The notes below the pieces were generated by a model that was not told the DNA's origin, made no database searches, and saw nothing but the letters and a program-made list of their open reading frames with translations. Of a stretch of DNA of 44,693 nt, positions 17,551 to 26,938 are shown in pieces. This stretch comes from Cyclobacteriaceae bacterium. GTDB taxonomy: Bacteria; Bacteroidota; Bacteroidia; Cytophagales; Cyclobacteriaceae. The stretch's first letter is position 1. Every line of letters starts with the position of its first letter. Location: assembly GCA_012033595.1 (NCBI GenBank), contig JAAUQL010000042.1, positions 1-44,693 on the forward strand. The letters are read 5' to 3'. The translations under genes were made by a program, and so were the position numbers.

Positions 17551-20500
17551 TTATTGCATCTGTAATGATTTTATTTTCAGTATCTCTTTCAAAAGTACAG
17601 ACACCTTTTGAACCGAGTCGATATTGTTCACAATGAATATAACGCGATTTTGGCCATCTTTTATTTTACAAATTCGGGGGTTTTGTTGTACAAATTTTAA
17701 TATGCTGCCAAATATAGGTGAATTATAATATTTTGCATTTTCCGATGAGAGAAGAAAGGCTTTAAACACATGGTTTTTTATATTTAATTTTTCAAAACCT
17801 AATTTTTCAGCGTCCCATCTTATCCTGACTATTTTGATAAGGTCTTCTACAGGTGGGGGCAGCGGACCGAATCGGTCGATCACCGAATCAATAAATGATG
17901 CCAGCTCACTTTCATGTTTTAGGTTGTCCAGTTCATTATATACCCTGAGCCGCTCGGAGATATTGCTAATATAATCATCTGGGATAAGCAATTCGAAGTC
18001 GGTATCGATGAGACAGTCAGTAGTGAAAAGCGCTTCAAAATTTACCAGCTCATTTTTAAACAAGTCTTTGAACTCGGTTTCCTTTAACTCTTGCACCGCC
18101 TCGTCCAGTATTTTATGGTAGGTGTCGAAGCCCAGGTCGTTGATGAAGCCGCTCTGCTCTGCGCCCAGGAGGTTGCCCGCGCCACGTATATCGAGATCAC
18201 GCATGGCCACTTTGAATCCATCGCCCAAATGCGAAAATTCTTCCAGTGTTTTCAGGCGCTTCCGGGCTTCTGCAGTCAGACCAATGGCAGGAGGGGAGAG
18301 GAGGTAGCAAAAAGCTTTTTTGTTTGATCTGCCCACCCGACCCCGCATCTGGTGCAGGTCAGAAAGGCCGAACATATGCGCGTGGTTGATGATGATGGTG
18401 TTGGCATTGGGGATGTCGAGTCCCGACTCAATGATATTGGTAGAGATGAGGATATCGGCATAGCCTTCGATAAACTGTATCATGGCATTTTCGAGCTTTT
18501 TACCCTCCATTTGCCCATGAGCCACTACTATTTTGCATCCGGCACCAATTTCAAGATTATATTAGCCACCTGTTCGATATCTTTTACACGATTGTGTACA
18601 AAAAAGACCTGCCCCCCTCTTCGGAGTTCAAAACTAATGGCATCCCGAATGATGGTCTCACTAAAGGTATGAATTTCGGTGGTGACCGGTTGGCGGTTGG
18701 GTGGCGGAGTGGCGATAACGCTGAGGTCACGTGCTCCCATTAGTGAGAAATGCAATGTTCTGGGAATGGGGGTGGCAGTGAGCGTAAGTACATCTACATT
18801 AAAACGCATGGTTTTTAGCTTTTCTTTGACGCTGACACCGAATTTCTGTTCTTCATCGATGACCAGGAGACCCAGGTCTTTAAAAATCACATCCTTATTC
18901 ACTATCCGGTGGGTACCGATAAGTATATCCACCTTACCTTCCGCAACCTTTTTAAGAATGTCTTTTATTTCTTTGGATGTTTTGAAGCGATTGATGTACG
19001 CCAGGTTGACGGCAAAGTTTTGCAGCCTTTCTTCAAAAGTCCGGAAATGCTGCATGGCCAATATGGTAGTGGGCACCAGTACGGCCACTTGCTTGCCATC
19101 GAGTACCGCTTTGAAGGCCGCCCTTATGGCTATTTCAGTTTTACCAAAACCCACATCGCCACATATCAAACGATCCATCGGATGGGGCATTTGCATGTCG
19201 GCCTTTACGTCGCTGGTAGAAGATGCCTGGTCGGGAGTATCCTCAAAGAGGAAGGAACTTTCTAATTCGGCCTGCATGAAATTATCTTTGGAAAAGGCAA
19301 AACCCGGAGCGGCTTTTCTTTTGGCATAGAGCGAAATCAGGTCTTTGGCGATGTCCTTTACCTTCTTGCGCACCCTGCTTTTTTTGTTTTCCCAATCTGG
19401 CGATCCCAATTTGCTCAGCGTTGGTGGCAATCCTTCCTTTCCGGAAAATTTGGATATCTTGTGCAGGGAATAGATGCTTACATAAAGGATGTCGTCGTCT
19501 TTGAAGATGAGACGGATAGTTTCTTGCTGATTGCCGTTCACTTCGATTTTGTCCAGACCCACAAATCTACCTACACCATAGTCGATGTGAGTAACATAAT
19601 CACCAGTCTGCAAAGACTTGAGTTCATTCAGTGTGAGTGCCTTCGATTTGGAATATTTTTGGCTGGCCTTGAATTTATGGTAGCGCTCAAATAGCTGATG
19701 ATCGGTATAACACAAAATCCTGTTTTCGTGGTCTATAAAGCCATTCCGTAAACTGATTTGTAGTTGTTTAAACGTAAGCTGAGCATTTATTTCTTCAAAA
19801 ATAGAAGTCAATCTGTTGATTTGCGCATAAGAGTCGGCAGCAATAATGATTTGATAATCTTTTTGCTGATGGCTGATGAGGTCTTCGGAGATGAGGTCGA
19901 AATTTTTATGAAAAGATGGCTGGGCTTCGCAATTGAACGTAAACCCTGTATCTGCATCGAAAAAATAACGGTTACCAAATTCGATCAGATCGTGGGTTTT
20001 CAAATCGTCTAGCAGCGATTGCCGGGTTTCAAATAGAGCCTCCGGGTTTTGGATCACTTTGGTTTGGTTGGTCTTGCCCATGATCTTATCGAAACTCACC
20101 TGGGCATTTGAGTGGTATTTGTCAATAGTATCTAGCGTAAGCTGTACATCCTTGAACCATACCTTGGTGTTTTTAGGCAAGAAACCCAGGAAGGATTGTT
20201 TGACTTCGTGAACAAATTTTGTTTGCAGGTTGGGAATGATGCTTATATTTTTTTTGTGATCCAGAGATAGCTGGGTTTCCGGGTCAAATGTGCGGATGCT
20301 TTCAATTTCGTTGCCGAAGAGCTCAATACGATAGGGGAGTTCGTGTGCAAATGAAAATACATCTATAATGCCGCCTCGCATGGCAAACTGGCCGGCTTCG
20401 TACACAAAATCTTCTTTTTCAAAATCATAGTCAATAAGTGTGGCAAAGAGTTCGTCTATGTTGATTTGCGCGCCTTCTTCAAGATGGATGGTATGGCTTT

Positions 20501-20924
20501 TTAATGCTTTTTTATTCACCACCTTTTCGCACAAAGCCTCCGGATAGCTCACGATCAACAAACCCTCCGTGCCTTTGCTATTGAGATGACTGATCAGTTC
20601 GGTTCGCAGTAAAATATTGGCGTTTTCTGTTTCTTCATATTCATACGGCCTTTTGTATGAAGTCGGAAAGAAGGCCACGTCCTTTTTGCCTGTGAGGTTT
20701 TGCAGGTCATTTTGAAAATATGCAGCTTCTTCCCTGTCATGGAGCACAAAAAGTTGGGTTTGCTTGCTGTTGTTGTCGGCCAATGCAGCAGCAAGCACCG
20801 CATCGAGGCTGCCGGACAGGCCTTTGAGATGTACCCTGATACCCGAATTGGGTTTTAATATTTCAGACAATGATCTGGTGATGATATCATCACGGTATTG
20901 CCCAATTAAGTCATTTACTTTCAA
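17551..20924 (-). CDS. mfd: Transcription-repair coupling factor Mfd (one missing base)
   Basis: Mfd removes RNA polymerase stalled at DNA damage and recruits UvrA. The corrected length of about 1124 residues is normal. Order seen: an N-terminal UvrB-like region (FFPTSYKRPYEYEE), a CarD-like RNA-polymerase-interaction domain (LQTGDYVTHIDYGVGRFVGL), a helicase with Walker A GDVGFGKTEIAIR, the DEEQ box, TATPIPRTL, and the C-terminal motor with SGLDIPNANT and QMRGRVGRS. The raw frame stops at TAG at 18530-18528. Adding one A (T run 18531-18534 on the plus strand) gives DAKIVVAHGQMEGKK and continues into the second part. It is a stand-alone gene, divergent from the COX3-like gene. Confidence 0.94.
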
Positions 20925-24183: not shown

Positions 24184-24657
24184 TCAGTGTTTATGAAAAT
24201 ATGCTTTTTCAAATTCATCTACCGTTGACCGCAGTTTTTCGATGTTGGCCAGGTCGGTACCTTGTTTACTAAGCATGGCATAGACGGATATTTTGTGTAG
24301 CAGCTCTAAATGTTTTTGATACTTGGCATACGCCTCTTTTTGGTCGGGCGCTACGATTTTGATTCGCTGGTGCAGAAAATACTGACTGACAGTTTCCTGT
24401 ATTTTATTGGCATGCTCTTCTTTGTTGGTGATCCAGCGCACCAGTTGGTTGTAGTTAGGCTTTTCGCTACCCGACAATTCTTCGATCTGTTTCATCGCCT
24501 TTTCTATGGTGGTAATGTCTTCCCTGATCAGCGATATTCTGATGGAGTCGGCATAAATGCCGCAAGGAATTTCGCAATGCGCAGAGGCAAATTGAACATT
24601 GAGGCTGGTGAAAAGCAACACTAAAGTAAGGGCTGAAATTGTTTTTTTAAGATTCAT
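24184..24657 (-). CDS. sodN: Nickel superoxide dismutase with predicted Sec signal peptide
   Basis: Ni-SOD converts superoxide to hydrogen peroxide and oxygen. The 157-residue precursor has a Lys-Lys, hydrophobic, FASA signal peptide (residues 1-26). The mature chain then begins exactly with the nickel hook HCEIPCGIY (residues 27-35), which matches HCxxPCGxY with His1, Cys2 and Cys6. The remaining helices (QLVRWITNKEEHANKIQETVSQYF) fit the four-helix bundle of the enzyme. The mature length of about 131 residues is slightly above the 117 of the Streptomyces enzyme. No sodX-like protease gene is adjacent. Signal peptidase I cleavage after AxA could itself expose the N-terminal His amine. The gene is divergent from chrA. 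Confidence 0.93.
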   Translation of the reverse strand: MNLKKTISALTLVLLFTSLNVQFASAHCEIPCGIYADSIRISLIREDITTIEKAMKQIEELSGSEKPNYNQLVRWITNKEEHANKIQETVSQYFLHQRIKIVAPDQKEAYAKYQKHLELLHKISVYAMLSKQGTDLANIEKLRSTVDEFEKAYFHKH

Positions 24658-24872
24658 TTTATTTGTGATTAATTAAAAGGTATAAATATGATTGCTTATT
24701 GAATATGGAATTTACTGGTATCTTCGAAGTTTGTGCTTATACAATGAAAAATAGTTGATGGCATTTTACTTCATTTGCAGTTCAAATTACACTGTCAGAT
24801 CAACATTTTGAGGTAATATGGATTTATTTGACATTTTATTAACTAATTTTTCGGAATCAAGTTTGAAAATCA

Positions 24873-26057
24873 TTGGTAAAAAGAATTAGATATTTCATCT
24901 TCTTACGGGATGTATTCATTATAGCCATCGGGGCATTTGGCGGCCCCACTTCCCATTTGGCCATGATCATCAAAAGGATGGTTGTACAGCGGGCATACCT
25001 TAGTGAAGCAGAGCTCATGGAGCTAAATGCCTTGTGTCAAATATTGCCAGGACCTACATCTACCCAAACCATTACCGCTATAGGTTTTAAAATTGGCGGA
25101 CCCCTACTGGCCTATCTCACCCTGATGGTTTGGCTGCTTCCCGCTTTTTGTGTTATGACCACCGTAGGTGTGCTCATGTCGCACTTCGACCAGGTGGGCA
25201 AGTCTGTGGAATTTACCAAGTTTATTCAGCCGATGGCCGTTGGATTTGTCGCCTATGCCGCCTATGTGATCAGCACCAAAGTGGTGAAATCGTACGAAGC
25301 CGGAGCCATTATGATGATTTCTGCTATTTTGTCCTTCATGCTCAAATCACCCTATGTTTTCCCCGTGCTTTTGCTGGGCAGTGGGGCGCTTACGGCCATA
25401 AAATTTACCGAGCAACCCATTGAGCCGCATTCCCGGCTAAAAATTGAATGGTCAAATTTTGTATTGTGGGCTGTGGTGTTTGTAGCCATCGCCGTGGTGG
25501 GGCATTTTACGAAGGCTTTGCCCATCAGGTTACTCGAAAATTTCTATCGCAATGGTAGTTTAATTTTTGGAGGTGGGCAGGTACTTATTCCTCTTTTATA
25601 TACAGAGTTTGTGGAGTTTAAGCACTATTTGACTTCTGAAGAATTTCTCACCGGATACGCCGCCGTACAGGCCGTGCCTGGTCCTGTATTTTCATTTGCC
25701 TCCTACATCGGTGCCCTTTCTATGCGTGAATACGGATTGTGGGGTGAAATTTTGGGAGCCCTCCTGGCTACTATTGGGGTATTTTTGCCTGGCACATTTT
25801 TTATTTTCTTTGTCATCCGTTTTTGGGAGCAACTCAAAAAATACCGCATTGTTCGGGCCTCAATCGAAGGAATAAATGCTGCCAGTTCGGGGATGGTGAT
25901 TGCTGCGGCTTTTTTACTATTTCAGCCCCTGGAGCCAGATTTTATAAATATGGCCATGATCATTGCCACCTTCCTGGCGCTCACGTTTACTAAAATCCCC
26001 CCTCCCTTCATTATTCTTTCAGGCCTGCTGGCCGGCTTTGCTTTGACATATTTTTAA
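24873..26057 (+). CDS. chrA: Chromate transporter ChrA (CHR family)
   Basis: The 394-residue membrane protein of the two-domain CHR type has about ten or more helices in two related halves. The first carries GAFGGPTSHLAM (about residues 20-31) and LCQILPGPTSTQT; the second repeats FGGGQVLIPLL and the AVQAVPGPVFSFASY motif. The family exports chromate by exchange or proton drive, though some members act on other anions. The start is TTG at 24873, since an in-frame stop lies 9 bp upstream; a shorter leader is possible. It overlaps the convergent ldcA gene by 39 bp. Confidence 0.88.
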   Translation: MVKRIRYFIFLRDVFIIAIGAFGGPTSHLAMIIKRMVVQRAYLSEAELMELNALCQILPGPTSTQTITAIGFKIGGPLLAYLTLMVWLLPAFCVMTTVGVLMSHFDQVGKSVEFTKFIQPMAVGFVAYAAYVISTKVVKSYEAGAIMMISAILSFMLKSPYVFPVLLLGSGALTAIKFTEQPIEPHSRLKIEWSNFVLWAVVFVAIAVVGHFTKALPIRLLENFYRNGSLIFGGGQVLIPLLYTEFVEFKHYLTSEEFLTGYAAVQAVPGPVFSFASYIGALSMREYGLWGEILGALLATIGVFLPGTFFIFFVIRFWEQLKKYRIVRASIEGINAASSGMVIAAAFLLFQPLEPDFINMAMIIATFLALTFTKIPPPFIILSGLLAGFALTYF

Positions 26058-26938
26058 AAAAGCTTGTGCGTCTTCCACCGCCAGTTCTGTTTCCAGGCCA
26101 ACCTGCAGGGCAAAATTACTGCTGGTATGACCGATCGGAAAGTTGAATGCTACCGGATAAGCAAACTCAGCAACATGAGACAGAATGATAGCGTTGGCAT
26201 CGACACCAAAGCTGTCTTTGTTGTCTTTCATATCCGAAAACTGTCCCACGATCAGTCCTGACAATGACGGCAGGATGCCGGCTCTTTTCAGTTGCACCAT
26301 CATTCGGTCAATATGATACAGGTTTTCACCCACATCTTCTAAAAACAATATGTTGCCCTGAGCCACAATCTGCGATGGGGTGCCGATGGTATGGCAAATA
26401 AGTGACAGGTTGCCTCCGGTAAGCCGGCCACGGCATTTGCCTGGCAGATTGAGTGGGTGCCCTGCCACCTGCAGTACATTATTTTTCCAAATAGCAGATG
26501 GTGGTACCAATGGAGCGAGGCATCGTCGATAGCGTAAAAAAACGAAGGCATAGGGGCATGAATGCTACATATACCTATCCTGTACAAATGCAAATGAAAA
26601 GCAGTGATGTCGCTAAATCCACAAATCCACTTCGGATGTAGCAGCAGGGGTCGATAGTCGATCTGATCTATAATCCGCGTGGAACCATAGCCCCCCCGAA
26701 CCATAAAAATTGCTTTGATGGCCGTGTCGTTTATTGCTTGCTGCAAGTCTTCGGCACGCTGCGCATCGGTTCCGGCAAACTGAAAGTGCTTTTCGAAGAG
26801 GTGTTTGCCCAGTTTGACATCAAGTCCCCATTGCTTTAGTTTGCTGATGCCCGAGAGCGTATGGTTTTTGTCCACAACTTTGGCAGTAGCTACCACCGCT
26901 ACCCGGTCGCCGCTATTCAGATATGGTGGAATGATCAT
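26019..26938 (-). CDS. ldcA: LD-carboxypeptidase (peptidase S66, LdcA/MccF-like; one missing base)
   Basis: S66 peptidases cleave the bond between the meso-diaminopimelate and D-Ala of recycled murein tetrapeptides. The N-terminal half reads MIIPPYLNSGDRVAVVATAK, FMVRGGYGSTRIID and the nucleophile motif CGFSDITAF. The second half, in another frame, carries GGNLSLICHTIGT, the acid LFLEDVGEN (Glu) and the base IGHTSSNFALQVG (His). Adding one A (T run 26482-26486 on the plus strand) joins them at LLFGKNNVLQVAGH and gives about 306 residues with a full Ser-Glu-His triad. Without it the frame fails in the middle. The 3' end overlaps chrA convergently. Confidence 0.88.

Follow-up and report, generated by a model that had tools for sequence, protein, structure and literature searches.

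A predicted exported nickel superoxide dismutase in Bacteroidota whose signal-peptide cleavage would bare the nickel-binding histidine

The window, a stretch of 44,693 nucleotides from a Cyclobacteriaceae contig, carries a gene for a nickel superoxide dismutase (Ni-SOD) that probably matures by way of the general secretion pathway. We infer that the protein is made as a Sec preprotein and exported unfolded, that signal peptidase I (LepB) cleaves it after Ala26, and that this single cut would make His27 the first residue and free its alpha-amine. Once outside the cytoplasm, the mature enzyme could bind Ni(II) through His1, Cys2 and Cys6, and it would clear superoxide in the periplasm. Ni-SOD is usually regarded as SodX-dependent. 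The features concerned are the following.

24184 to 24657, minus strand: sodN-like gene for a predicted exported ('type B') nickel superoxide dismutase of 157 amino acids, with an ATG start (open reading frame and translation, Pfam, structure model, Foldseek).
24580 to 24657, minus strand: Sec-type signal sequence, residues 1-26, with MNLKK n-region, hydrophobic core and FASA end ((-3,-1) rule).
24553 to 24579, minus strand: nickel hook, HCEIPCGIY, spanning residues 27-35 and corresponding to His1-Tyr9 in the putative mature enzyme (sequence, conservation in the clade).
24187 to 24579, minus strand: putative mature chain of 131 residues, a four-helix bundle in the model (structure model).
24658 to 24872, no strand: divergent intergenic region between sodN and a chromate transporter gene, with no match to the Bacteroidota promoter consensus.
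24873 to 26057, plus strand: chromate transporter (ChrA family), a divergent neighbour and not a maturation gene, also found at L006 and L007 (Pfam/NCBIfam, neighbourhoods).

The window protein matches the Pfam family Sod_Ni (PF09055) with 109.4 bits (cut-off 25), and a profile search found its gene to be the sole Sod_Ni match in its own genome. Against the NCBIfam sodN equivalog TIGR02753 it scores 46.8 bits, under the cut-off of 90, indicating that it is a divergent member of the family. The AlphaFold2 model (50 alignment rows, mean pLDDT 90.7) consists of a signal helix and a predicted four-helix bundle as in the solved Ni-SODs, with hook residues 28-31 at pLDDT below 50. In a Foldseek search of the PDB, Ni-SOD chains filled the first 16 ranks, with target-normalised TM-scores of 0.71-0.77; their E-values were modest, from 5e-3 to 4e-2, and none was below 0.001. 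A single-sequence search of the PDB with the window protein gave no match at E 0.001, and a 50-member profile found a solved Ni-SOD at E 0.006 in an alignment confined to the first 34 residues.

The preprotein N-terminus reads MNLKKTISALTLVLLFTSLNVQFASA followed by HCEIPCGIYADS, the first part directly abutting the hook HCEIPCGIY. The first-pass annotation had placed the hook straight after the FASA end of a Sec-type signal, and we indeed find a 26-residue signal sequence followed by the intact hook. The protein has the features of a Sec and signal peptidase I substrate, namely a charged n-region (MNLKK), a hydrophobic core and small residues at -3 and -1. Signal sequences were called by rule throughout, from the best 12-residue Kyte-Doolittle mean and the (-3,-1) rule, with start codons assigned by a simple scripted rule that is a weak point for rows without a clear ATG. 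On this test, a form of the signal-peptide prediction that the same annotation had proposed as a check, the only compatible site within residues 15-35 lies between Ala26 and His27; two more formal sites follow residues 36 and 38, just past the hook. A lipoprotein is not expected, since Cys28 is preceded by His and there is thus no lipobox. The genome encodes one LepB, in a single frame of 370 amino acids.

The hook of the window protein contains the full set of His1, Cys2, Pro5, Cys6, Gly7 and Tyr9, the residues of the catalytic Ni-SOD. Among 113 type B rows (L079 and L140 represent one gene, counted twice) the first five are invariant (113/113) and Tyr9 is kept in 104, with the canonical Asp3 replaced by Glu or Gln. 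This replacement and the remoteness of the chain from solved Ni-SODs in the profile search would also suit an exported protein that chiefly binds or carries nickel or copper and is not a SOD, comparable to the other exported proteins with an N-terminal His that appear from PMC12537917 to carry metal. We regard this as quite unlikely, as Ni-SODs top the fold search and the hook is so strictly conserved.

Sod_Ni is rare near the genome of the window: it was found in 3 of the 395 genomes of a GTDB phylum sample and in 2 of the 390 of an order sample, the own genome included in both. The distinct loci from these samples, retrieved with the Pfam profile, all have window-like anatomy and obey the (-3,-1) rule before His1 (4/4). 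A pattern search of named genomes gave 218 relatives, the best 80 of which were used; 50 of these are labelled Bacteroidota, six are unassigned and the others belong to Ignavibacteriota, Calditrichota, Planctomycetota and further phyla. Together with the window, these best 80 of 218 all show a hydrophobic core (best 12-residue Kyte-Doolittle mean 1.98-3.71 in 81/81), and 76 of the 81 have a fitting site before His1, a share that is biased because one of the two search patterns included AHCE. For the Bacteroidota-labelled rows, window included, the site fits directly before the His in 48 of 51. Over all type B rows, a fitting site is present in 103/113 and a hydrophobic core in 113/113; L002, L003 and L004 were dropped as the same genes as L008, L017 and L027, judged by coordinates and N-termini. 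Type B, as read from these sequences, is a large and putatively 'exported' clade across many phyla, and the arrangement of signal followed by hook characterises the clade as a whole, some exceptions apart, and is not a peculiarity of the window protein.

The simple site is missing in ten of the 113 rows. In six (L057, L078, L143, L144, L147, L148) additional residues separate the likely end of the signal peptide from the His; L036, L063 and L076 have Pro directly before the His and L128 has Thr. These ten would need another cut, or their sequences have been misread, and the members with extra residues may undergo a second protease cut or trimming. Extended to the clade, such exceptions, and the grouping of L143, L147 and L148 on a single branch (SH-aLRT 99), would fit a scheme in which the protein is exported but signal peptidase I alone does not bare His1: it would cut earlier, or an aminopeptidase or second protease outside the cytoplasm would trim the enzyme. 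For the window this is unlikely: its sole site within residues 15-35 abuts the His, the great majority of rows fit likewise, and the commonest neighbour cluster, present in only 18 of 81 neighbourhoods, is a response regulator.

A set selected independently of the cleavage site was obtained from Planctomycetota with the Pfam Sod_Ni profile, which matched 46 of 294 genomes with 50 matches in total. Of these matches, 46 loci could be typed (14 type A, 32 type B), one was L076, already among the relatives, and three were left untyped (L151 of G824, in which no hook was found, a truncated one in G853 and the fragment G890:C317). Type A proteins have an HCD hook behind a short, non-hydrophobic propeptide (best-12 Kyte-Doolittle mean -1.03 to 1.26 in 14/14), and small fitting residues precede the His in all 14 (A-x-A in 13, V-x-A in one). 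Type B proteins, in contrast, have an HC[EQ][IV] hook behind a hydrophobic signal sequence (mean 2.07-3.17 in 32/32), and in 27 of the 32 His1 is immediately preceded by a site compatible with signal peptidase. Both types occur together in G918, G987 and G1009 (pairs L109/L139, L110/L136 and L113/L135); in all three pairs the copies fit the pattern of their own type, and a SodX-like gene adjoins the type A copy. These three planctomycete genomes, with a SodX-linked and a signal-peptide Ni-SOD each, form a natural test system.

In a tree of 129 rows, type A (15 rows) and type B (114 rows) part on a single branch with SH-aLRT 100. The tree was built by a quick method from few columns (138) and contains one very long type A row (L116); being unrooted, it does not give the order in which A and B arose.

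The two types differ as clearly in their association with SodX. In the genome of the window (97% complete, 234 contigs) no match to the SodX model TIGR02754 was found at E<=0.001, so that, unlike in SodN-SodX systems, where SodX is present and normally adjacent, the enzyme is without a SodX anywhere in the genome, a near-certain absence given the completeness. The earlier remark that no sodX lies adjacent thus holds for the genome as a whole. We also searched the 46 planctomycete Sod_Ni genomes, G345, G385 and G422. A SodX-like match of 34-84 bits lies 63-422 bp downstream of the gene on the same strand in 13 of the 14 type A loci, and at the fourteenth the Sod_Ni match stops 87 bp short of the contig end. 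Near the gene no SodX-like match was found at any of 33 type B loci (the 32 and L076), where proximity was scored by script for the 23 best matches and by eye for the remaining table rows; one SodX-model match shares a contig with a type B gene, at a distance of about 90 kb. Scores over the TIGR02754 cut-off occur in 9 of these 50 genomes, all of them with type A (9 of the 14 type A genomes), and in none of the 49 genomes of named relatives (from 50 of the 80 loci).

The cut-off itself is somewhat strict, as shown by Nonomuraea (L103). Its type A SodN (163.2 bits to TIGR02753) has a soluble propeptide, and the divergent SodX-like ORF 30 bp away, a clear SodX, reaches only 54 bits to TIGR02754 (cut-off 63.25). 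Since none of 14 named control genomes had a TIGR02754 match over the cut-off, they do not form a positive control and Nonomuraea serves instead. The L103 record, NZ_LT559118.1, is labelled a plasmid but with 11.85 million bases is probably the chromosome. The SodX argument rests on adjacency, since the cut-off is imperfect: type B-only planctomycetes have SodX-model matches of up to 34.0 bits away from the gene, next to 34.3 bits for the weakest adjacent type A match, and 24 of the 49 genomes of relatives show weak matches that do not exceed 29 bits.

Such weak matches (20-34 bits in many of these genomes) could be taken to mean that the Ni-SOD stays in the cytoplasm and that its N-terminus is a membrane anchor or an odd propeptide cut by an unrecognised SodX-like protease. 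They are, however, mostly part-length pieces of longer frames, they do not lie near the gene at the 33 type B loci and they are absent from the genome of the window, while the hydrophobic core is present in every type B row, which makes a cytoplasmic form very improbable.

The proposal that signal peptidase I acts in place of SodX is therefore supported by comparison, a hydrophobic signal being paired with the lack of SodX and a soluble propeptide with its presence. On this route no dedicated protease would be required, which would explain why the clade lacks SodX. It is plausible that SodX and LepB recognise sites of one kind, judging from the A-x-A of type A and from the Nonomuraea SodX-like protein, which matches the signal peptidase I model with 39.7 bits (cut-off 47). 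In the simplest account one kind of cut would serve both types, type A being processed by cytoplasmic SodX and type B by membrane-located LepB. More broadly, it seems reasonably likely that bacteria have two parallel Ni-SOD systems, one cytoplasmic and dependent on SodX, the other large, extracytoplasmic and dependent on signal peptidase I, with nickel loaded outside; the latter would let cells use nickel against superoxide with no maturation genes reserved for the purpose. SodX would in this view substitute for signal peptidase in the cytoplasm and read the same A-x-A before His, and some planctomycetes would run both systems.

The periplasm is an oxidising compartment, and Cys2 and Cys6 might for this reason pair before nickel arrives. 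Among the signal peptidase I substrates of Bacteroidetes, about 71% have Gln at +1, which then becomes pyroglutamate (PMC10653852). A crude count over the neighbourhoods of the 51 Bacteroidota loci gave 45 Gln and one His among 134 ORFs with a signal peptide-like start. His is presumably kept at +1 in type B because a metal-ligating free amine demands it.

No conserved maturation or nickel-delivery partner was found among the neighbour clusters examined at 81 loci (the window and the best 80 of 218 relatives), many of which are cut by contig ends; at L082 the ORFs that were picked do not include that of the Ni-SOD. The largest clusters, a response regulator (18 loci) and a histidine kinase (14 loci), occur at varied positions, and the next-largest are confined to Marinifilaceae. 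Of ten neighbours compared with Pfam, two matched no family. A cluster of Crp-type regulators (family assigned from the L041 member) adjoins type B sodN at 9 of the 81 loci, for instance L041, L047 and L050, and on an Ilyobacter plasmid (L104) a gene for a cyclic-nucleotide-binding protein lies upstream of sodN; such neighbours perhaps place sodN under redox or oxygen control. The Bacteroidota promoter consensus has no match between sodN and chrA and three in the whole window, against 2.44 expected.

The chrA gene is divergent to sodN at 3 of the 81 loci (window, L006 and L007), with a gene for an S66 LD-carboxypeptidase behind it. At L006 and L007 the latter is a single ORF of 299 amino acids at the same place, and in the window (26019-26938, minus strand) it is divided between two frames, which separates the N-terminal from the C-terminal Pfam half. 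Reactive oxygen species arise under chromate stress, and a link to an exported Ni-SOD is possible at these loci. As a general explanation we rejected it, for chrA is a neighbour in just these three and the SOD-like genes of the chr determinant named in PMC4779226 are chrC (Fe-SOD-like) and chrF. Elsewhere in the window, mfd (transcription-repair coupling factor; 17551-20924, minus strand) reads as a pair of neighbouring ORFs (798 and 324 amino acids), apparently split by an in-frame stop near 18528, which reflects an assembly error or a broken gene.

The genome of the window also encodes two Fe/Mn-SODs that show no evident signal sequence, as well as a single CuZn-SOD whose start resembles that of a lipoprotein, so that the exported Ni-SOD would add to other SODs. 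We rejected replacement of Fe/Mn-SOD, one being kept in 38 of 50 genomes. CuZn-SOD scored over the cut-off in 2 of the 49 genomes of relatives (G816, a third, has only a piece of 27.5 bits) versus 100 of the 395 phylum-sample genomes, own included; replacement of the periplasmic CuZn-SOD by exported Ni-SOD is at this point only suggestive, the relatives being of other lineages and the genome of the window having both.

The canonical SodN-SodX systems of Streptomyces and cyanobacteria, like those of Nonomuraea and the planctomycete type A, share with the window protein the Sod_Ni family, the hook pattern His1-Cys2-x-x-Pro5-Cys6-Gly7, the A-x-A before His1 and the requirement for a bared His1. 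They differ in having a short soluble propeptide, an adjacent SodX and HCD, where the window protein has a signal sequence, no SodX, HCE and its low score to TIGR02753. Exported Ni-SODs as such are not wholly new. In PMC12537917, a paper of 2025 that is prior art, the signal peptide of a planctomycete Ni-SOD (Roseiconus lacunae WP_230780104.1), ending in ASA directly before the His as in the window, served as a search seed that returned many Ni-SODs; the terms 'sodX' and 'signal peptidase' are absent from its main text. The same source describes LPMO, CopC, DUF4198 and DUF6702 proteins, in which removal of the signal peptide likewise makes a metal-chelating His1, but these have other folds and are copper or nickel carriers or oxygenases. 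The ubiquitin-NiSOD fusions of algae (PMC6332867) also have an alternative partner before the Ni-SOD, but are eukaryotic. We presume that removal of the ubiquitin would there bare His1.

Dupont et al. (2008) reportedly treat sodN diversity and may discuss export. Outside that work, we found no source in the open-access PMC literature, as far as its text was available, that lets signal peptidase I take over the maturation of Ni-SOD from SodX (sources including PMC12537917, PMC8346466, PMC2667541, PMC6332867, PMC11636452, PMC3919588, PMC4779226, PMC10653852 and PMC3116461). PMC8346466 calls the cyanobacterial Ni-SOD cytoplasmic and considers strains with sodN but without sodX perhaps unable to use it. 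If the route holds for the whole type B clade, this reading of a missing sodX would not carry over to it, and the clade would escape surveys that take sodX as the mark of function. A bacterial enzyme would then receive its nickel outside the cytoplasm with no known chaperone, active Ni-SOD might be easy to express by this route, and the genomes that contain both forms would offer a clean test of the choice of compartment.
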